The notes beneath the pieces are model-generated. The model searched no databases. It was not told the DNA's origin and was given only the letters and a program-made list of their open reading frames with translations. A program made the position numbers and the translations under genes. From Sphingobium quisquiliarum P25 (lineage in GTDB: Bacteria; Pseudomonadota; Alphaproteobacteria; Sphingomonadales; Sphingomonadaceae), in assembly GCF_000445065.1 (NCBI RefSeq), contig NZ_ATHO01000045.1, positions 1 through 64,000 on the forward strand: a DNA stretch of 64,000 nt, written 5' to 3'. This document shows positions 14,838 to 64,000 of this stretch, piece by piece (position 1 is the stretch's first letter; each line of letters begins with the position of its first letter).

Positions 14838-14933
14838 CCGTTCGGGCTGAGCGAAATCGAAGCCTTCTGCTGAGCGAAGCGAAGTGCTTCGGCTTCGCTC
14901 GGCTGGGCACTTCGACAAGCTCAGGGCGAACGG
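14838..14933. repeat. Family A palindromic repeat between flgE and flgF
   Basis: Left arm CCGTTCGGGCTGAGCGAAAT, right arm CTTCGACAAGCTCAGGGCGA (ending ACGG), with a GAAGC-rich core that can also fold. It fills most of the 135-nt gap between flgE and flgF, in an operon where other gaps are minimal. Confidence 0.8.
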
Positions 14934-53559: not shown

Positions 53560-55419
53560 TCAGAAGCGGACACGCACGCCGCCATAGGCCGAGCGGCCGT
53601 AAGTGCCATAGCCATAGGCGGTCGCATATTCCTGATCGAACAGATTGTCGATGCGGCCGTAGATTTCGAGATTTTCCGTGAGGGGGAAGGAAGCGCGCAG
53701 GTCGGCGACGGCATAGCCGTCCAGCTGGACCCGATTGCGGGTGACGGGATCGAGATCGATGCTGTCGCCGACCATGGTCACGGTCGCCCCCGTGGACAGG
53801 CCGAAGGACCAGACATAGTCCACGGACGTGCTGACGGCATTGGCGGCGCGGCGCAACAGGCGCTGGCCACGGGCCGTGCTGCCGGGCGAACGGTCCCGCG
53901 CATCGACATAGCTGTAGGCGGCGGTGAAGGTCAGCGCCTCCACGGGCCGCAGCGTCAGTTCCGCTTCCACGCCCTTGGCGCGGGTGCGGTCCAGATTTTC
54001 ATAAGTGGACGTCGCATTGTCGTAATTCAACTGATCCTGCGTGTCGCGCCAGAAGCCGGTGACGGACAGCACGGCCTTTTCGCTGCCCAGATTCTGGTCG
54101 AAGCCGATGTCATAGCTTTTGGAGCGTTCCGGCTTCAGGGCGGGATTGCCGCTGTAGGTGTCGTAAAGCTGATAGAGCGAAGGCGCCTTGAACCCTTCCC
54201 CATAGCTCAGGCGGAAATTGGTGACGCCGCCATTGGGCGAATAGTTGGCGTTGGCGCCGAAGGTGGTCGCCCCGCCGAACTGGCTATGATCGTCGCGGCG
54301 CACGCCAGCAGTCACTGACAGACCTGTGAGCGGCTTCACCACGGCGAGGCCATAAACGCTGTCGATGTTCGCCCTGTGGCTTTCGCGCGATCCGAAGCCG
54401 AAAAATTCATAGTCGGGCCGCTCATGCTCATAGCCGAGCAGCAGCTTCACTTCGTCGGCGGGCTGATAGACGGCTTCATATTCGAAGCGGAGATTGTTGC
54501 CGGAATAGCCGAAATCGGGATCAGTGCCGCGCAAATAATAATAATCGCGGTCCTGCCGATACCAGGTCACCGCCGCGCGGTTGGTCAGCGTGCCGTCGAG
54601 CAGTGCGAAGTTGAGGCCCGCATAGCCGATATACTGGTTCGACCGGGCGACGTCCGGGCTGTCGGCAGGCGCGCCGAAGAAGCTGTCATAGTCAAGATCG
54701 CCATGGATATAATAGCCGCGAAGATCCAGGCTGACATTATCGGTGAAGGCGATCTTCAACCGGGCGTTGCCGGTGACATTTTCATAACCGTCCTTTTCCG
54801 ATCCGCCGAAGCCGGGCGAGACGGCGGAAATACCGTCCGTCCTGAAATAGGCGACGCCGACGCCGCCGGAAACGATGCCGCTGGTGCCCGACACGTCCGC
54901 CTTCGCGTTCAGCGTGTCGGCATAGCCATAATCGACCGACGCCTTGCCGCCGAAGCCTTCACCCGGCACGCCGGTCATGACGTTGACGACACCGCCGATC
55001 GCCTGGCTGCCATAGGCGATGGAGTTGGAGCCGCGCAGCACCTCGATACGGCGGATATTGCCGACCAGCAGATTGCCGAAATCATATTGATCGCCGATGC
55101 CGCTGGGGTCGTTGACCTTGACCCCGTCGATCAGCACCAGCGTCTGCGTCGTTTCCGCGCCGCGCACCGACACGCTGGTGACATTGCCGAGGCTGCCCGT
55201 CCGGTTGAAGCGGATGCCCGGCGTGGTCGCCAGCAGATCGACGACGCTGACATTCTGGCGGGTTTCGATCGTCTTTTCATCAATGACGGTGACCGCTTGT
55301 CCGACCTCGTCCGTCGGCTGCTCAATGCCGAGCGCGGTGACGACGATCTCCCCCGATTCCTCCGCGACGGCGGGCGTTGCGGCGAGGAGCGCGATGAGCG
55401 AAATGCTTGTCTTCAACAT
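53560..55419 (-). CDS. btuB: TonB-dependent vitamin B12 receptor
   Basis: Outer-membrane receptor, 619 aa. Signal peptide LKTSISLIALLAATPAVA, TonB-box-like EIVVTAL, plug domain (VVDLLATTPGIRFNRTGSLGNVTSVSVRG, TLVLIDGVKVNDPSG, IRRIEVLRGSNSIAYGSQAIGGVVNV), then the beta barrel ending GGVRVRF. GGGAAGA lies before the ATG. B12 specificity is supported by the cobalamin riboswitch in its leader and the neighbouring btuFCD genes. Confidence 0.95.
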   Translation of the reverse strand: MLKTSISLIALLAATPAVAEESGEIVVTALGIEQPTDEVGQAVTVIDEKTIETRQNVSVVDLLATTPGIRFNRTGSLGNVTSVSVRGAETTQTLVLIDGVKVNDPSGIGDQYDFGNLLVGNIRRIEVLRGSNSIAYGSQAIGGVVNVMTGVPGEGFGGKASVDYGYADTLNAKADVSGTSGIVSGGVGVAYFRTDGISAVSPGFGGSEKDGYENVTGNARLKIAFTDNVSLDLRGYYIHGDLDYDSFFGAPADSPDVARSNQYIGYAGLNFALLDGTLTNRAAVTWYRQDRDYYYLRGTDPDFGYSGNNLRFEYEAVYQPADEVKLLLGYEHERPDYEFFGFGSRESHRANIDSVYGLAVVKPLTGLSVTAGVRRDDHSQFGGATTFGANANYSPNGGVTNFRLSYGEGFKAPSLYQLYDTYSGNPALKPERSKSYDIGFDQNLGSEKAVLSVTGFWRDTQDQLNYDNATSTYENLDRTRAKGVEAELTLRPVEALTFTAAYSYVDARDRSPGSTARGQRLLRRAANAVSTSVDYVWSFGLSTGATVTMVGDSIDLDPVTRNRVQLDGYAVADLRASFPLTENLEIYGRIDNLFDQEYATAYGYGTYGRSAYGGVRVRF

Positions 55420-55602
55420 GATTGTCTTCCCTGAGCGCCATGCGACATGAGGGCCAGGGCTTCCGCGCGAGCGGCCGGTGCGCGAGACAAGGAGACGCCA
55501 GCCCGCCCCGCGCACCGATGCGGCCCCCGCCGCTTCGTCGCTCAGACGGAAAAACACCGTGCCTGGGCCTGTCCCTGGACCCAAGGCAAGAGCGACCATG
55601 CG

Positions 55603-55792
55603 CCGGCAGGTCTCCTGGCTCGCGGGTCAGGGCAGCGATGCACGGGCCTTCCCGGACTCGCGTCCAGTGGCCGGTTCCCCGCGCCCTCCCCTTTCGAAAG
55701 CGTGAGTTACCAAGTGCATCGCGCTCGCCGCTTACAGTTGCAGGGACAGCCGCGGAATTGGGCGAAGGCTCGCCCGCACCGCATTCCCTTTC
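55603..55792 (-). ncRNA. Cobalamin riboswitch in the btuB leader
   Basis: On the reverse strand, in order: GAATGCGGTG (55779-55788), CGCGGCTGTCCCTGCAACTG (55735-55754), GCCACTGG (55664-55671), GGGAAGGC (55646-55653) and the B12 box AGCCAGGAGACCTGCC (55605-55620). These are the conserved elements of adenosylcobalamin-type riboswitches, with normal spacing. The element ends about 180 nt before the btuB ATG and would repress btuB when B12 is abundant. Confidence 0.95.
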
Positions 55793-55878
55793 CGGCGCGA
55801 TCTTCTTTCATGTGAGCGGTTGCCCGCCCACGCGGCGCGCCATAGGGGAAATGACGGGTTCTGCCAAGGAGTGGACGA

Positions 55879-56434: not shown

Positions 56435-57217
56435 TCAAGCAGGAAGGGCAATGGTCTCCGCTATTTCGGCAGGCACGGCCGTGCCCGCAACCGCTTCGCC
56501 AATCAGAAGCAGGGTCGGGTCCTCGTCACTGATGGTCTGCACCAGGAATGCCAGCGCGGACAGCTTGCCGCGGATCAGGCGTTCATTGGGGAGCGAAACG
56601 TTAACCGCCACCATCACCGGGGTTTCGGGATCACGTCCGGCGGCGATCAACTGGCGGCTGATCTCTCCGGCGGCGGCGCGGCCCATGTAGATGCCGAGCG
56701 TGCCGCCGGGACGGGCGAGCGCTTCCCAGTCGAGCTTGAGCGGTTCGCCCGCCTTCAGATGCGCGGTGACGAGCGTCAGTCCGCGCGCCTTGCCGCGCAG
56801 GGTGAGGGAAGCGCTACCGCTCGCCGCAGCGGCGCTGGCGGTGGTGATGCCGGGGCAGATGCGGAAGCGGATGCCGTCCGCCGCCAGATGTTCCATCTCC
56901 TCCGCCGAGCGGCCGAAGATGGAGGGATCGCCGCCTTTGAGGCGGACGACGCGCTTGCCCGCCTTGGCGGCGGCGAGGAGCAGGTCGTTGATGCTCTCCT
57001 GCGCCTTGCTGTGGCGGCCAGAGCGTTTGCCCACGCTGACCCGCTCCACGCCTTGCGGGATGAGGTCGAGAACGCCGGGACCGACCAGCGCGTCGTAGAA
57101 GACAATCTCCGCCGCAGCGATCAGCTTTTCGGCCTTCCGGGTGAGCAGGTCCGGGTCGCCGGGGCCTGCGCCGACCAGCCAGACTTCACCGGGGGCGATA
57201 AGTTCATTCGGCTGCAT
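56435..57217 (-). CDS. cobA: Uroporphyrinogen-III C-methyltransferase
   Basis: SUMT, first step from uroporphyrinogen III to siroheme, the cofactor of NirB. It has 260 aa. VWLVGAGPGDPDLLT, VVRLKGGDPSIFGR and GIYMGRAAAGEISRQLIAAG are diagnostic. The ATG at 57217 has AGGAG upstream and overlaps the nasA end by 14 nt, so it is last in nirB-nirD-nasA-cobA. It is the single-domain form, not a CysG fusion. Confidence 0.94.
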   Translation of the reverse strand: MQPNELIAPGEVWLVGAGPGDPDLLTRKAEKLIAAAEIVFYDALVGPGVLDLIPQGVERVSVGKRSGRHSKAQESINDLLLAAAKAGKRVVRLKGGDPSIFGRSAEEMEHLAADGIRFRICPGITTASAAAASGSASLTLRGKARGLTLVTAHLKAGEPLKLDWEALARPGGTLGIYMGRAAAGEISRQLIAAGRDPETPVMVAVNVSLPNERLIRGKLSALAFLVQTISDEDPTLLLIGEAVAGTAVPAEIAETIALPA

Positions 57218-59816
57218 GGAGCGTCTCCTGCGGGATTTGGGCGAGGATGTTGGCGAGCGCGGGGCGGCAGGACCCGCAATTGGTGCCAGCGCCGATCGCC
57301 TTGCCGATGGCGGGCACATCGACCAGGCTCTGTTCGCGGATGGCGGTCATGATCTGATTGAGGCCGATGTCGAAGCAGACGCAGATGGTCGGCCCCTTGT
57401 CAGGCTGGTTGCCCGGCCCACGGGCGGCGAGGACGGAGGCCCCCACCCCTTCGACGGCAAGCTGGCTGATGAGCCAATCCCGCGAGGGGAGCAGGCCGGT
57501 GCGGGTGACGAAGAGGACGGCGGCGAGCTTGCCTTCGCTGATGATCGCGATACGGCGGGTGCCGCGCGTCATGTCGATGGCTTCGACCCGGTCGCCCTTG
57601 GGCAGGCTGGCTTCGAGCCTTATGGGATCGCCATTGCCCGCGACTTCGTAGAGCGCGCCGCCGGGAACGGTCACGCGGGTCGACCAGAGGCAGGGGAGCT
57701 TCGCGGGCTGATCACCGCGCAGGATCAGGAAGCCCTTCCATTCGGTGACGACCCTCTCGATGCTGGCGGGGGTCAGTTTGAAGCCGGGCTGGCCCGAATG
57801 CGGATCGACCAGCGGACGGGGCAGCAGGCCGGTGCGGCCGCCGGTCGAGACCTGATCGGTCCAGTGGATCGGCGTGAAGATCTCGCCCCGGCGCTGACCA
57901 TCGCTATGAGCAACGCGGAAGATGCTGTTGCCCTGCGCGGTCTGAACGCGGGCAAGGTCGCCATCGATAATGCCGAGGTCCTGCGCATCTTCGGGATGGA
58001 TTTCGACCAGCGGCTCCTCACGGTGACGGGCGAGTTTGGGCGCGAGGCCGGTGCGCGTCATCGTGTGCCACTGGTCGCGATAACGGCCGGTGTTGAGCGT
58101 CATCGGCCACTGTTTGAGCGGCTCCTGCAACTCCATCTGCTTCGTCAGGACCAGCCGCGCCTTGCCATCCGGCGTCGAGAAATGGCCATCGGCAAACGGC
58201 TTGTCGCCACCCCAGCGGAACGGCTCCATCGCCTCATAGGCGTCATTGCCGATGGTGGCGTGGCCGCGCAGGTTGAGCACGCGCTGGCCGTCATTTTGAT
58301 AGGCGGTCAGGCGCGCATGTTCGCGCCAGATGTCGGCGGGCCGGTCATAGGCGAAGGCATTGGCCCAGCCCATCCGCCTGGCGACTTCCTTGATGATCCA
58401 CCAGTCGGGCTTGGCCTCGCCGGGGAGCGCAAGGAAAGGACGCTGGCGGCTGATCGTGCGGTCCGAATTGGTGACCGTGCCGTCCTTCTCCCCCCAGCCA
58501 GCGGCGGGCAGGCGAACATCGGCATGAACGCTGCTGTCGGTGTCCGCGATGATGTCCGACACGACGAGGAAGGGAACCGCTTCCAGCGCCTCGCGCACGC
58601 GGTTGGCGTCGGGCAGCGAAACGGCGGGATTGGTCGCCATCACCCAAAGCGCCTTTATGCGGCCTTCATTGATGGCACGGAACAGATCGACGGCTTTCAG
58701 GCCCGGCTTGGCCGCCATGTTCGGCGCGGCCCAGAAGCGGCCTACCCGCTCCACATTTTCGGGCGCAAAGTCCATGTGGCTGGCAAGGGTTGATGCGAGG
58801 CCGCCCACCTCGCGGCCGCCCATGGCGTTGGGCTGGCCGGTGATCGAGAAAGGCGCCGCGCCCGGCTTGCCGATGCGGCCGGTGGCGAGGTGGACATTGA
58901 TGATCGCGTTCACCTGATCGGTGCCGCGGATCGACTGGTTGATGCCCTGGCTGAACAGGGTGACGGTACGCGGCGTGGCGGCGAACAGCTTGAAGAACTG
59001 TTCCAGCAGCGCGGGCGCGATGTCGCATGTCTTGGCCGTGGTCCACAGGTCATGGCCGGTGCGGATATGCTCCCAGAAGCCTTCGGGGGCGTTGACATGA
59101 TCGGCCATATAGGCGGGATCGGTGATGCCTTCCTGATCACACCAGGCGAGCAACCCATTCATCAACGCCACGTCGGTGCCGGGCTTCACCGGCAGATGCA
59201 GGTCGGCGCCTTCGCAGGTTTCGGTACGGCGCGGATCGATGACGACCAGCTTGGTGCCGCGAGCAGCACGGGCAGCTTGAATACGCTGGTAAACGATCGG
59301 GTGGCACCAGGCCGTGTTGGAGCCGACCAGCACGATCAGGTCCGCTTCCTCCAGATCGCCATAGTTCGCTGGCACCACATCCTCGCCAAAGGCGCGGTTG
59401 TGACCGGCGACCGCGCTCGACATGCAGAGGCGGCTGTTGGTGTCGATGTTGGAAGTGCCGATGAAGCCCTTCATCAGCTTGTTGGCGACATAATAATCTT
59501 CGGTCAGCAGCTGGCCCGAAACATAAAAGGCGACGCTGTCGGGTCCGTAGCGATCGACCGTCTCGCGAAATTTCTTCGCCACAAGGTCAAGCGCCTTGTC
59601 CCAGCTGGCGCGCTTGTTGCCGATCATGGGATGCAGCAGGCGCCCGGTCAGGCCAACGGTTTCGCCCAGATGCGTGCCCTTGGAGCAGAGACGCCCGCCA
59701 TTGGCCGGGTGCGCTTCATCGCCCCTGATCTTGACCGACCGGGGCCTGGTCTGCGTGGCCGAAATGCCGCAACCGACGCCGCAATAGGCGCAGGTGGTGC
59801 GGATGGCCTCTGTCAT
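57204..59816 (-). CDS. nasA: Assimilatory nitrate reductase, catalytic subunit
   Basis: Cytoplasmic molybdoenzyme reducing nitrate to nitrite, 870 aa. The N-terminal [4Fe-4S] site begins CAYCGVGCGI; the bis-MGD-binding region includes SSAVAGHNRAFGEDVVPANYGDLEEAD and NMAAKPGLKAVDLF. A C-terminal BFD-like [2Fe-2S] domain (CVCFDIGL, TNCGSCRPALANIL) is fused, as known for NasA without a separate reductase subunit. The ATG at 59816 directly precedes the conserved start; earlier in-frame codons are not conserved. Confidence 0.95.
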   Translation of the reverse strand: MTEAIRTTCAYCGVGCGISATQTRPRSVKIRGDEAHPANGGRLCSKGTHLGETVGLTGRLLHPMIGNKRASWDKALDLVAKKFRETVDRYGPDSVAFYVSGQLLTEDYYVANKLMKGFIGTSNIDTNSRLCMSSAVAGHNRAFGEDVVPANYGDLEEADLIVLVGSNTAWCHPIVYQRIQAARAARGTKLVVIDPRRTETCEGADLHLPVKPGTDVALMNGLLAWCDQEGITDPAYMADHVNAPEGFWEHIRTGHDLWTTAKTCDIAPALLEQFFKLFAATPRTVTLFSQGINQSIRGTDQVNAIINVHLATGRIGKPGAAPFSITGQPNAMGGREVGGLASTLASHMDFAPENVERVGRFWAAPNMAAKPGLKAVDLFRAINEGRIKALWVMATNPAVSLPDANRVREALEAVPFLVVSDIIADTDSSVHADVRLPAAGWGEKDGTVTNSDRTISRQRPFLALPGEAKPDWWIIKEVARRMGWANAFAYDRPADIWREHARLTAYQNDGQRVLNLRGHATIGNDAYEAMEPFRWGGDKPFADGHFSTPDGKARLVLTKQMELQEPLKQWPMTLNTGRYRDQWHTMTRTGLAPKLARHREEPLVEIHPEDAQDLGIIDGDLARVQTAQGNSIFRVAHSDGQRRGEIFTPIHWTDQVSTGGRTGLLPRPLVDPHSGQPGFKLTPASIERVVTEWKGFLILRGDQPAKLPCLWSTRVTVPGGALYEVAGNGDPIRLEASLPKGDRVEAIDMTRGTRRIAIISEGKLAAVLFVTRTGLLPSRDWLISQLAVEGVGASVLAARGPGNQPDKGPTICVCFDIGLNQIMTAIREQSLVDVPAIGKAIGAGTNCGSCRPALANILAQIPQETLHAAE

Positions 59817-59930
59817 GCTCTTACCTCTTCGTCCCGAGGAACAAGATTTGGGTGGAGGCGCATGCCGCAAGGGATGGCCAGCAGACCGCCCCCACCCAGA
59901 TCCCCGCCGCTATGGCTGGGGACCGGAAGC

Positions 59931-60266
59931 TCACGCGGCCGCCTTGAGCGCCGTGGGGCGGGCGATCAGGATGCGGCCGCCTTCCTCTTTCACGGCGATG
60001 GCCGGCGTGCAGCCTTCATCATTGCCCTGCGCCTCGCCCGTTTTCAGGGCGATGTTCCAGTTGTGCAGCGGGCAGGCGACGCTGTGGCCATGGACTATGC
60101 CCTGGCTCAGCGGCCCCTTCTTGTGCGGGCATTCATTGACCAGCGCGAAAACCTTGTCGTCGCTGGTGCGGAACACGGCGATTTCCTTTTCGCCAGCAAT
60201 CTGCACCGTGCGGGCGCCGCGCTGGGGAATGTCGGCCAGCGTTCCGATGTCGATCCATGTCGTCAT
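59931..60266 (-). CDS. nirD: Nitrite reductase small subunit
   Basis: Rieske-type partner of NirB, 111 aa. VNECPHKKGPLSQGIVHGHSVACPLHNWNIALKTGEA has the Rieske-like Cys-His pattern. It starts 5 nt after nirB and is followed, after about 114 nt with no gene, by nasA. Confidence 0.94.
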   Translation of the reverse strand: MTTWIDIGTLADIPQRGARTVQIAGEKEIAVFRTSDDKVFALVNECPHKKGPLSQGIVHGHSVACPLHNWNIALKTGEAQGNDEGCTPAIAVKEEGGRILIARPTALKAAA

Positions 60267-60271
60267 GTCGT

Positions 60272-62779
60272 TCACTCCGCAGCGATGGCGATGGGTTCGA
60301 GATGCTGGTGCAGTTCGGCATGTCGGCCCGCCGCACGCTCCGCCCATGGGTCGTCTTGAGAAAAGCTTTGCGAATAGAGGAAGCGGCTGCGCAGGGCCTC
60401 ACGGCCTGCTTCGTCTTCCACAATGCGCTGCTTCACATATTCGACGCCGACACGCTCGATCCACGGCGCGGTGCGCTCCAGATAGCGGGCTTCTTCGCGG
60501 TAGAGCTGGATGAAGGCAGCGCAATAATCCAGCGCCTCCTGCTCGGTCGCGACCTTGCACAGCAGGTCGGTGGCGCGGACATGGATACCGCCATTGCCGC
60601 CGACATGCAGTTCATAGCCCGAATCCACGCAGACCACGCCAAAGTCCTTGATCGTCGCCTCCGCGCAATTGCGGGGGCAGCCGGAGGCCGCGATCTTGAA
60701 TTTGTGGGGCATCCAGGAACCCCAGGTCATCCGCTCGATCTTGACGCCAAGGCCGGTCGAATCCTGCGTGCCGAAGCGGCACCATTCGCTACCGACGCAG
60801 GTCTTCACCGTGCGCAGCGACTTGCCATAGGCATGGCCCGACACCATGCCCGCGGCATTGAGGTCGGCCCAGACGGCGGGCAGGTCTTCCTTCTTGATGC
60901 CGAAGATGTCGAGACGCTGGCCGCCGGTGACCTTCACCATCGGCGCGTCATATTTCTCGACCACATCGGCGATGGCGCGCAATTCACGCGGGTTGGTCAG
61001 GCCACCCCACATGCGCGGAACGACCGAATAGGTGCCGTCCTTCTGAATGTTGGCGTGCATGCGCTCGTTGACGAAGCGGCTCTGCTGATCGTCCTGATAC
61101 TCGCCGGGCAGCGCGCAGAGCAGATAGTAATTCAGCGCAGGGCGGCAGGAGGAGCAACCATCGGGGGTCGACCAGTGCAGCAGTTGCATCACTTCCGGGA
61201 TCGAGCGCATATTCTGCGCCACGATCTCGCGGCGGACGTCATCATGGGTGAAGCTGGTGCATTTGCACATGGTCTTCGGACCCGAAGCCACATCGTCGCC
61301 AAGGGTGAGCGCCAGCAGATTTTCGACCAGACCGGTGCACTGGCCGCAACTTGCCGAAGCCTTGCAAGACCCACGCACCGCATCGAGGCTGCAATTGCCC
61401 GCTTCGATGCAAGCGACGACCTGGCCCTTGCTGACGCCGTTGCAGCCGCAAATCTCGGCATCGTCCGAGAGCGCCGCAACGGCCGCCTTAGGGTCCAGCG
61501 CGCCCCCTCCAGAGGCGAAGGCCTGGCCGAAGATCAGCAGGTCGCGAATGCCGCTGACGTCCTCGCCCTTCTTCAAAAGATCGAAATACCAGCCGCCATC
61601 AGCCGTATCGCCGTAGAGCACCGCGCCGATGATCCTGTCGTCCTTGACGATGACGCGCTTGTAAACGCCGCGCGAGGCGTCGCGCAGGACAATGTCCTCG
61701 CAGCCATCCCCGCCCGAAAAGTCACCCGCCGAAAAGACATCCAGACCCGCGACCTTGAGCTTGGTCGAGGTGACCGAACCCTTGTAACCCGTGTGCTGAT
61801 CGGTAAGGCCGTCGGCAAGGCTGCGGCACATATCCCACAGCGGCGCGACAAGGCCGTAGACATTGCCGTCATGCTCGACGCATTCGCCGACCGCGAGGAT
61901 GTCAGGGTCGCTGGTGACCATATGGTCATCGACCTTGATGCCGCGATTGACCTCCAGCCCGGCTTCGCGGGCCAGCGCGGTCGAAGGGCGGATGCCCACC
62001 GCCATGACGACGAGGCTGGCCGGGATTTCGCGGCCATCCTTCAGGCGCACGCCCTCCACCTTGCCGTCGCCATAAATGGCTTCGGTATTCGCGCCCGTCA
62101 GGATGGTCTGGCCCCGGCCTTCCAGCGCGGATTTCAGCAGCCAGCCCGCCGCCTCATCAAGCTGCCTTTCCATCAGCGTGTCCATGAGGTGGATGACGGT
62201 CACCTTCATGCCGCGCAGCGTGAGGCCGTGCGCTGCTTCCAGGCCCAGCAGGCCACCGCCGATCACCACCGCATTGCCGCCCTTTCCGGCGGCTTCCAGC
62301 ATTGTATCGACATCCTTCATGTCGCGGAAGCTGATGACGCCGGGCAGGTCCTTGCCGGGCACCGGAATGATGAACGGATCGGAGCCTGTCGCGATCAGCA
62401 GCTTGTCATAACCGACGGTGCGGCCCGATTCACTGGTGACGGTCTTGGCCGCGCGGTCGATCGCCGTCACCGGATCACCTGCGATCAGCTCGATATTGTT
62501 GTCGAGATACCATTCGCGATTGTTGATGACGATGTCATCGAAGCTCTTTTCACCCGCCAGAACGGGCGAGAGCATGATGCGGTTATAGTTCACATAGGGT
62601 TCTGCGCCGAAGATGGTGACGCGATAGCGCCCGGCGTCCCGCGCCAGCAGTTCCTCGACGGCGCGGCAACCAGCCATGCCGTTGCCCACAACCACCAGAT
62701 GTTCGCGAACATCTTCGGAGGGCACGAAGATTTCCTCTTCGTTGGCCGCTCCCGGTCCGGCGTTGTTCTGAAAATCCAT
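60272..62779 (-). CDS. nirB: NADH-dependent assimilatory nitrite reductase, large subunit
   Basis: Reduces nitrite to ammonium, 835 aa. In order: FAD/NADH oxidoreductase domain (LVVVGNGMAGCRAVEELLARD, NAVVIGGGLLGLEAAHGL), BFD-like [2Fe-2S] domains (ICGCNGVSKGQVV, SCGQCTGLVENLL, MCKCTSFTHDDV), and the siroheme/[4Fe-4S] sulfite-reductase-like domain with ASGCPRNCAEATIKDFG. The ATG at 62779 is preceded by AAGGG. A terminator lies in its leader, so expression depends on readthrough. Confidence 0.96.
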   Translation of the reverse strand: MDFQNNAGPGAANEEEIFVPSEDVREHLVVVGNGMAGCRAVEELLARDAGRYRVTIFGAEPYVNYNRIMLSPVLAGEKSFDDIVINNREWYLDNNIELIAGDPVTAIDRAAKTVTSESGRTVGYDKLLIATGSDPFIIPVPGKDLPGVISFRDMKDVDTMLEAAGKGGNAVVIGGGLLGLEAAHGLTLRGMKVTVIHLMDTLMERQLDEAAGWLLKSALEGRGQTILTGANTEAIYGDGKVEGVRLKDGREIPASLVVMAVGIRPSTALAREAGLEVNRGIKVDDHMVTSDPDILAVGECVEHDGNVYGLVAPLWDMCRSLADGLTDQHTGYKGSVTSTKLKVAGLDVFSAGDFSGGDGCEDIVLRDASRGVYKRVIVKDDRIIGAVLYGDTADGGWYFDLLKKGEDVSGIRDLLIFGQAFASGGGALDPKAAVAALSDDAEICGCNGVSKGQVVACIEAGNCSLDAVRGSCKASASCGQCTGLVENLLALTLGDDVASGPKTMCKCTSFTHDDVRREIVAQNMRSIPEVMQLLHWSTPDGCSSCRPALNYYLLCALPGEYQDDQQSRFVNERMHANIQKDGTYSVVPRMWGGLTNPRELRAIADVVEKYDAPMVKVTGGQRLDIFGIKKEDLPAVWADLNAAGMVSGHAYGKSLRTVKTCVGSEWCRFGTQDSTGLGVKIERMTWGSWMPHKFKIAASGCPRNCAEATIKDFGVVCVDSGYELHVGGNGGIHVRATDLLCKVATEQEALDYCAAFIQLYREEARYLERTAPWIERVGVEYVKQRIVEDEAGREALRSRFLYSQSFSQDDPWAERAAGRHAELHQHLEPIAIAAE

Positions 62780-62790
62780 CCCTTGACTCC

Positions 62791-62857
62791 AGAATAAAAA
62801 AAAAAGCCGCCATCCGGACGCTTGGGCTTTGAACCCAAAGGTCTGGATGGCGGCTTT
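62791..62857 (-). terminator. Leader terminator upstream of nirB
   Basis: On the reverse strand, GGAUGGCGGC-type arms (62806-62815 with 62845-62854, 10 bp, extended by flanking A-U pairs and an inner GAC/GTC helix) close a folded loop and run into ten consecutive T residues (A at 62796-62805). It is a strong intrinsic terminator ending about 12 nt before the nirB ribosome-binding region, so it must be overridden for nirB expression. Confidence 0.92.
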
Positions 62858-62895
62858 GCCATCATTCACGCGTCGCCAGTCCGTCCATGGACCAG
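62846..62895 (-). promoter_or_regulatory. Two-hairpin ANTAR-type antiterminator in the nirB leader
   Basis: Reverse strand. Hairpin 1 (62876-62895): stem CTGGTCC with GGACTGG, hexaloop ATGGAC. Hairpin 2 (62846-62863): perfect 6-bp stem GATGGC with GCCATC, hexaloop AAAGCC. Both loops have A at position 1 and G at position 4, the known ANTAR-protein target. The 3' arm and loop of hairpin 2 are also the 5' arm of the leader terminator, so the two folds exclude each other. A NasT-like ANTAR regulator is implied but not encoded in the window. Confidence 0.85.
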
Positions 62896-62913
62896 TTCAG
62901 CTATGTGAGTGGA

Positions 62914-62927
62914 GGACAACCTTGTCC
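62914..62927. promoter_or_regulatory. Small inverted repeat upstream of the nirB leader
   Basis: GGACAACCTTGTCC is a perfect 6-bp inverted repeat with a 2-nt spacer, just upstream of the antiterminator hairpins. It may be a binding site or part of the 5' end of the leader; no regulator can be named. Confidence 0.3.
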
Positions 62928-63002
62928 TTCGCAGTGCAGCATAGATGAACGGCGATCAGGGTCAAGGCGATTCGGAAGAAACTTTTCTTAAAGAACACCC
63001 CC

Positions 63003-63094
63003 CCGTTTGGGCTGAGCCTGTCCTGAGCTTGATAGAAGGGTCCTCTCCTTTCTTGAAGAGAAGTGAAGCCCTTCGACAAGCTCAGGGCGAACGG
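63003..63094. repeat. Family A repeat between nirB and the NarK gene
   Basis: Left arm CCGTTTGGGCTGAGCCTGTC and right arm CTTCGACAAGCTCAGGGCGA followed by ACGG, an imperfect inverted pair in the intergenic region between the nitrate transporter and the nirB leader. Confidence 0.75.
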
Positions 63095-63124
63095 AGGCAA
63101 GAAGTTCCCGGACACCAAAACAAG

Positions 63125-63155
63125 GGCGGCGGCTCCTCTTTCGAGGGCCGCCGCC
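63125..63155 (-). terminator. Terminator after the NarK-type gene
   Basis: GGCGGCGGC (63125-63133) pairs with GCCGCCGCC (63147-63155); on the reverse strand the stem is followed by CTTGTTTT. It lies about 20 nt after the stop of the nitrate transporter gene. Confidence 0.75.
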
Positions 63156-63175
63156 TCCTGTCCGGTTAACTTGCC

Positions 63176-64000
63176 TCAGATGCGGGCGCCGCTGCTCCAG
63201 GTCGCGCGCCAGCGGGCGCGGACCAGCGAGATGCCGAGGAAAGCCGCCACGGCCAGCCCCGCGAAGATCAGGAAGCCGGGCGCGAAGCTGCCGGTGAACT
63301 GCTTGGCAATGCCGAGCGATGAGGCGAGATAGAAGCCGCCAATGCCGCCCGCCATGCCGACGAGGCCGGTCATGACGCCGATTTCCTCCTGGAAACGCTG
63401 CGGCACCAGTTGGAACACCGCGCCGTTGCCGACGCCCAGCGCCAGCATCGCCGCGACGAAGAAGCCAAGGGCAGACACCAGCGTCGGCGCATAGGAGACG
63501 CCCGCCAAAGCCAGCGCGGCGGCGATATAGACCATCATCAGCGCCTTCACGCCGCCGATCCTGTCAGCCAGCGCGCCGCCCATCGGACGGACCAGCGATC
63601 CGGCGAAAACGCAGCCTGCCGTGCAGTAGCCCGCGACGATCGGCGTCAGGCCGAACTGGTCGGTGAAGTAGATCGGCAGCGATGCAGCAAGGCCGACAAA
63701 ACCGCCGAAGGTCACTGAATAAAAGCCCATCAGCCACCAGGCGTCAGCGCTCTTGAGCGGGTGAAAATAGTCGACCAGCTTCTTGGGCGCGGGCGCGTTG
63801 GGTGCGTTCTTCGCCATCAGCATATAAACGATGAAGACGATGGTGAGCGGGATGCAGGCAAGGCCCAGCACCGCGTTCCAGCCGAACAGCTTGGCCAGCA
63901 CCGGGGCGAAGAGAGACGCGAGCACCGTGCCCGAATTGCCCATTCCGGCGAGGCCCATGGCCTTGCCCTGATGCTCCGGCGGATACCAGCGGCTGGCGAG
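63176..64000 (-). CDS. NarK-type nitrate/nitrite MFS transporter, 5' end cut by window
   Basis: About 275 C-terminal codons are visible; the frame is open through the right edge. It has several membrane helices and NNP-family segments (GMGNSGTVLASLFAPVLA, WWLMGFYSVTFGGFVGLAASLPIYF, GVGNGAVFQLVPQRFQEEIGVMTGLVGMAGGIGGFYL). This is the nitrate/nitrite porter signature. It is upstream of and codirectional with nirB, but separated by its own terminator and a repeat. Confidence 0.9.
   Translation of the reverse strand, partial: LASRWYPPEHQGKAMGLAGMGNSGTVLASLFAPVLAKLFGWNAVLGLACIPLTIVFIVYMLMAKNAPNAPAPKKLVDYFHPLKSADAWWLMGFYSVTFGGFVGLAASLPIYFTDQFGLTPIVAGYCTAGCVFAGSLVRPMGGALADRIGGVKALMMVYIAAALALAGVSYAPTLVSALGFFVAAMLALGVGNGAVFQLVPQRFQEEIGVMTGLVGMAGGIGGFYLASSLGIAKQFTGSFAPGFLIFAGLAVAAFLGISLVRARWRATWSSGARI

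Follow-up and report, generated by a model that had tools for sequence, protein, structure and literature searches.

The DNA analysed here (the window) comprises positions 1-64000 of a 68,652-nt contig in the 4.17 Mb draft genome of Sphingobium quisquiliarum P25. Its minus strand carries the run nirB, nirD, a nasA-like gene and cobA, and the leader considered below lies on that strand, 5' of the nirB ATG at 62779. Read along the same strand, the order on the contig is nasT, nasS, narK and nirB. The coordinates of the genes and of the leader elements are given in Table 1. The window NirB reaches 94% identity with the NirB of Sphingobium and its relatives. The nasA-like gene is probably the assimilatory nitrate reductase; that name is taken from its gene position, and no NCBIfam model scored above its cut-off for this gene among the matches listed. 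Directly after the narK stop, at about 63155-63125 (minus strand), a long G+C hairpin is followed by CTTGTTTT and, judged by eye, is likely to be the narK terminator; it does not appear in the list from a simple terminator scan. A 20-nt interspersed repeat, CCCTGAGCTTGTCGAAGGGC, is present at 63068-63087 and 14907-14926, both on the minus strand, and occurs at 14 places in the genome with no more than one mismatch, 4 of them exact, against 0 for the reversed control. Further along, at 55588-55851 (minus strand), a cobalamin riboswitch (Rfam RF00174, 76.6 bits) lies just 5' of a large TonB-receptor-like frame at 53560-55599.

Table 1. Genes and leader elements of the nasT-nasS-narK-nirB region; nasT and nasS are given in contig coordinates.
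Feature	Position	Strand	Description
nasT	65914-66492	-	193 aa, Response_reg + ANTAR; about 3 kb upstream of the nirB leader
nasS (assigned)	64700-65914	-	NMT1_2 protein, 404 aa, overlaps nasT
narK-like transporter, 3' part (whole gene 63176-64417 on contig)	63176..64000	-	MFS_1 above cut-off; TIGR00886 276.2 bits, below cut-off of 311.7
Putative promoter TTGACC-16-TATGCT	62938..62965	-	consensus scan, 1 found vs 0.2 expected
Hairpin P0, AGGAC[AAGGTT]GTCCT	62913..62928	-	C-G closure, G at loop position 4
Hairpin P1, CTGGTCC[ATGGAC]GGACTGG	62876..62895	-	stem 62895-62889 / 62882-62876, loop 62888-62883, 7 pairs
Hairpin P2 (antiterminator), GATGGC[AAAGCC]GCCATC	62846..62863	-	stem 62863-62858 / 62851-62846, loop 62857-62852, 6 pairs
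Intrinsic terminator	62796..62857	-	hairpin core 62854-62806, T10 at 62805-62796
nirB, nitrite reductase large subunit	60272..62779	-	TIGR02374, 940.5 bits vs cut-off 578.35
nirD, nitrite reductase small subunit	59931..60347	-	TIGR02378, 94.3 bits vs cut-off 74.65
nasA-like molybdopterin oxidoreductase (start uncertain)	57204..59870	-	Pfam molybdopterin domains + Fer2_BFD
cobA, uroporphyrinogen-III C-methyltransferase	56435..57319	-	TIGR01469, 259.7 bits vs cut-off 185

The nirB leader had been predicted to carry two hairpins with six-nucleotide loops, ATGGAC and AAAGCC, each with A as the first and G as the fourth loop base, followed by a terminator with ten T residues. All of these were found on the minus strand between 62895 and 62796, and are referred to here as P1, P2 and the terminator. 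The switch had also been called complete, which is correct for these three elements, but a further hairpin, P0 (62928-62913), lies just outside the span considered and had been missed. The linkers are 12 nt between P1 and P2 (62875-62864) and 17 nt between P0 and P1. The putative promoter would place the start of the transcript at about 62931, and with that start P0 would be the first hairpin to form.

Folded alone, the 21 pairs of the terminator core give -36.0 kcal/mol and P2 gives -9.2 kcal/mol. The 5' arm of the terminator contains the 3' arm of P2 together with part of its loop, the AAA of which pairs with UUU in the full fold. The P2 and terminator folds are therefore mutually exclusive; this had been proposed from the shared arm, and both the sequence and the folding bear it out. 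The combination P0+P1+P2 amounts to -24.5 kcal/mol, compared to -51.3 kcal/mol for P0+P1+terminator. When the growing transcript was folded, P0, P1 and P2 formed first; P2 was present up to about 62814 and was lost at 62808. The fold of 116 nt has a z-score of -5.47, with none of 200 shuffles equally stable. Most of that signal comes from the terminator, because the 61 nt containing P1 and P2 alone give z = -1.91, with 8 of 200 shuffles equally stable. The simple scan did not pick up the nirB-leader terminator, the stem of which carries interior mismatches.

Conservation was followed in 80 named related nirB loci. A strict scan found P2 and a terminator 5' of nirB in 41 of them. In 39 of these 41 leaders, two C-G-closed hexaloop hairpins were present in the 100 nt before P2 (counted strictly, ie loops of 6 nt closed by C-G, with a purine at position 1 and G at 4, on stems of at least 4 pairs), and 0.29% of dinucleotide shuffles reach the same count, a comparison that is not a p-value since the leaders are related and not independent. 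With the window there are 42 leaders, of which 34 were placed in an alignment. Left out were L047, whose leader is identical to that of L048, and seven leaders with a long spacing (L059, L066, L067, L076, L077, L082 and L094). In those seven the P1 and P2 loops are 52-59 nt apart, compared to about 31 usually, and in some of them, for example L076, the extra sequence resembles a separate small hairpin. Paired cells make up 93.0% of the alignment against 87.6% in shuffles, none of 500 being as high. Pairs changed on both sides number 4 of 6 in P0, 6 of 7 in P1 and 0 of 6 in P2. The hairpins had been expected to covary in related leaders, and P1 does; P2 is invariant across the 34 leaders except for one G-U, and covariation thus neither supports nor counters it. 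RNAalifold adds GCC/GGC base pairing below P1. A loose -35/-10 pattern occurs at a similar place in 40 of the 42 leaders, a raw count without a chance control. Its distance from the P2 loop, on the 5' side, is about 108 nt, and 128-137 nt in the long-spacing leaders, in which P0 likewise lies further up; on these distances P0 comes out close to the 5' end of the RNA in each layout.

No Rfam family reached its gathering score in the leader, whether at the gathering threshold over the window or with E up to 1 over 62700-63180. Covariance model R1, run on the genome itself with E up to 10, returned 16 places; the nirB leader was the best and the next scored 26 bits (E 0.003). The four next-best places (L114-L117) have no P2 and terminator in the stretches examined, and L114 lies where an SDR-like gene begins. 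The genome's own narK leader, described below, scored just 13.5 bits (E 1.3), so R1 is too specific for listing a regulon. Run under stricter filters on 119 genomes of the same family, it gave 5 matches at E <= 1e-4, which is no measure of frequency.

The original prediction of an ANTAR-type switch before nirB stands, but a second one before narK had been missed. The gap between nasS and narK contains P0 cgcgc[GACGAA], P1 ccc[AAGGAT], P2 cagc[AAAGCC] and a terminator, the three loops starting at contig positions 64573, 64542 and 64502; narK has a switch of its own in addition to the nirB leader. Usable nasS-narK gaps number 65, ie 64 from the 80 loci and the window's own, and 64 of the 65 contain P2 and a terminator. 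Two upstream hairpins are found in 53 when stems of at least 4 pairs are demanded, compared to 0.31% of shuffles, and in 59 when 3-pair stems are allowed; the genome's own narK leader falls outside the first count, its P1 stem having 3 pairs. Both switches are present in all 35 loci that combine a nirB switch with a usable gap. Where the nirB switch is absent, narK either closely precedes nirB or lies about 1.2 kb farther upstream, and from that gene spacing a single switch may serve the whole run.

Outside the family, the sample consisted of 59 stretches, each lying 3' of nasS or 5' of nirB. P2 and a terminator were present in 35 of them, and among these 35 at least one upstream hexaloop hairpin was found in 29 and at least two in 8. 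That three hexaloops are general to NasT leaders was considered and rejected, both on the latter count, which is the strict one, and on 14 Pseudomonas-like leaders, in which the first hairpin is C-G-closed and P2 is present but, unlike here, the middle hairpin has G-C closure and is missing or changed in 2 of the 14. Set against 39 of 41 nirB leaders and 53 of 65 narK gaps, 8 of 35 elsewhere makes the three-hairpin form typical of the sphingomonad loci: it is the rule among those named and uncommon elsewhere in the sample. Another group of the same family, represented by 11 nirB leaders (L022-L032), has no third hairpin in any of them.

A search of the genome for a nasS-nasT pair had been proposed, and it succeeded. 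The draft genome contains one ANTAR match at E <= 0.001 (PF03861, E 1e-20), and 14 control genomes contain none; the match is in NasT, the gene for which is about 3 kb upstream and overlaps nasS. No NCBIfam model calls the NMT1_2 protein, the genome's nasS candidate, NasS. By sequence, NasT matches solved ANTAR proteins including the nitrate regulatory protein 4akk and AmiR, 1qo0. Another solved structure, 6wsh, is one which we take to be EutV; its letters at D54, K143, K147, Y164 and M172 agree with the numbering of the EutV paper, and at the EutV contact positions K143, K147, Y164 and M172 the residues of NasT are K, R, Y and M. In the NasT receiver (L002 5914-6492), VDG replaces the VKP of the aligned solved chains and the conserved lysine is thus absent, which is consistent with control by NasS binding and not by phosphorylation. 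In 75 of the 80 named loci the nasT-nasS pair shares the strand of nirB and lies 5' of it, and in the other 5 the contig ends before the place of nasT. Among the 119 same-family genomes, nasT (E <= 1e-20) is found in all 40 that have nirB (E <= 1e-100) and in 1 of the remaining 79. One record, L112, is titled Actinobacteria bacterium 21-64-8 and holds a sphingomonad-like nas cluster (NirB 83% and NasT 85% identical); its sequence looks as though the taxon label or the binning is wrong.

Several known systems resemble this one. Transcriptional antitermination by NasT is described for nirBD-PA1779-cobA of P. aeruginosa (Romeo et al. 2012, title in PMC6759348), which, going by that title, shares with the present locus the nitrate assimilation genes, their order and antitermination. 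In Paracoccus denitrificans NasT binds the nasA leader, and hairpin HI is needed for expression with nitrate (PMC3795266, PMC5424462). There too nasT-nasS lies beside the controlled genes, but the operon is a different one and two hairpins are named, HI and HII. NasS of that organism binds nitrate or nitrite and then frees NasT, and free NasT assembles into a larger oligomer that was described as "broadly consistent with a hexamer" (PMC3795266). In Klebsiella oxytoca, NasR likewise acts through ANTAR antitermination in response to nitrate, on the nitrate assimilation genes of nasF, but is one protein with sensor and ANTAR parts where a NasS-NasT pair is found here (PMC3795266, PMC5424462). The genome's nasS and nasT are adjacent genes, one sensor-like and the other receiver-ANTAR, linked to nitrate assimilation. 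The dual hexaloop antiterminator consists of two hairpins with 6-nt loops, A at position 1, G at position 4 and stems of at least 3 pairs, the second overlapping an intrinsic terminator; in the E. faecalis eut leaders the linker between them is 5-12 nt (PMC3369931). The nirB leader has such loops and stems, the terminator overlap and a linker within 5-12 nt, with an ANTAR gene in the genome. Enterococcus faecalis EutV/eutP thus shares with it the A1/G4 hexaloops, the overlap of P2 and terminator and a receiver-ANTAR protein, but has two hairpins and is activated by phosphorylation where three hairpins are found here (PMC3369931, PMC8934654). The sphingomonad relatives also differ from EutV/eutP in having a purine, and not strictly A, at position 1 of P0 and P1. 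Among the matches listed, the open-access literature, as far as its accessible text goes, contained no description of a third hexaloop hairpin or of sphingomonad NasT leaders. The leader therefore appears to be a known kind of NasT-type antiterminator, with the three-hairpin form as its apparently undescribed part within that literature.

The leader anatomy, the exclusive folds, the covariation of P0 and P1 and the single linked nasT-nasS pair lead us to conclude, with high confidence, that the leader of nirB-nirD-nasA-cobA is an ANTAR antitermination switch controlled by NasS-NasT. The course of events that we infer, including the promoter, the binding of NasT, the response to nitrate on the model of other species and the role of P0, would be as follows. 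Transcription would start at about 62931, and P0 would fold first, then P1, then P2. With no nitrate present NasS would keep NasT, the 3' half of the terminator would displace P2 and the polymerase would halt at about 62796; without NasT the terminator (-36.0 kcal/mol) would beat P2 (-9.2). Nitrate or nitrite would cause NasS to free NasT, whose ANTAR domains would dock on the hexaloop hairpins and keep P2 closed, blocking the terminator, and the operon would be read through. The lifetime of P2, which is lost between 62814 and 62808, would be the time window available to NasT. P0 would act as an extra, early loading or recruitment site, by analogy with the EutV model, in which a dimer binds a recruitment hairpin and then moves to the antiterminator hairpin (PMC8934654).

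The bases kept in the loops bear on what P0 does. The C-G closing pair and G at position 4 are present in all 34 aligned leaders for P0, P1 and P2 alike. Position 1 is A in 27 of 34 for P0, 26 for P1 and 34 for P2, the remainder being G apart from one T in P0. In 41 aligned narK leaders it is G in 35 for P0 and A in 38 for P1. (MAFFT misplaced P0 in the narK leaders L064, L069, L070 and L078, which depresses the narK counts for the loops and for 1/6 pairing.) The third base of the P2 loop and the terminator base that it pairs with are A-T in 25 of the 42 leaders, G-C in 14 and G-T in 3. Closure and G4 thus look strict, and A1 looks strict in P2 alone, whose loop also pairs with the 3' arm of the terminator. 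This rule agrees with the EutV structure, in which G4 makes the sole base-specific contact (PMC8934654), and fits less well with the weaker EutV binding caused by changes at position 1 (PMC3369931). We tentatively suggest, at a little under an even chance, that the three hairpins form a relay: P0 would load NasT as the RNA leaves the polymerase and pass it via P1 to P2, the docking loops needing just C-G closure and G4, with A1 fixed only in P2, where it would also serve the terminator.

A different reading, which we consider a serious possibility though short of probable, is that P1 and P2 alone work the switch, as in the dual-hairpin model, and that P0 is a 5'-end hairpin with some other role such as RNA protection. 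The P1-P2 linker fits the published range, that between P0 and P1 being 17 nt, and the 11 same-family leaders described above have no third hairpin. ViennaRNA and RNAalifold pair positions 1 and 6 of the P0 loop in nirB leaders, and the two are pairable in 33 of the 34 (once as T-A), so that P0 may be a tetraloop there. Against this reading, the closure and G4 of P0 are kept in all 34, and the hairpin is also kept where positions 1 and 6 are pairable in just 11 of 41 aligned narK leaders and 1 of 7 long-spacing nirB leaders.

It is very improbable that the structure is a constitutive, unregulated terminator ending narK transcripts. It is strong and lies downstream of narK, but the site is about 320 nt beyond the narK stop and 3' of the putative promoter, the hexaloops and the exclusivity of the folds are conserved in relatives, and the hairpin seen by eye at about 63155-63125 already follows narK. 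Less credible still is a riboswitch or leader-peptide attenuator: an open frame does run from GTG 62869 through the terminator, in frame with nirB, but conservation falls on the hairpin loops and closing pairs, gaps break the reading frame, no Rfam family attains its gathering score in the leader and an ANTAR gene is linked to it.

For the NasS-NasT switch itself, the three-hairpin form is relevant to timing: an ANTAR dimer contacts a single hexaloop at any moment and yet has to get to the antiterminator hairpin soon enough. If the relay is real, ANTAR RNAs would have a second architecture, one that might correspond to the larger oligomer reported for free NasT in P. denitrificans (PMC3795266). 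The natural exchanges of G for A at loop position 1 indicate where the loop rule is strict, and relatives whose leaders carry two or three docking hairpins at varied spacing offer ready-made test material. The sphingomonads thereby gain a concrete, testable nitrate switch, and with it its regulator.
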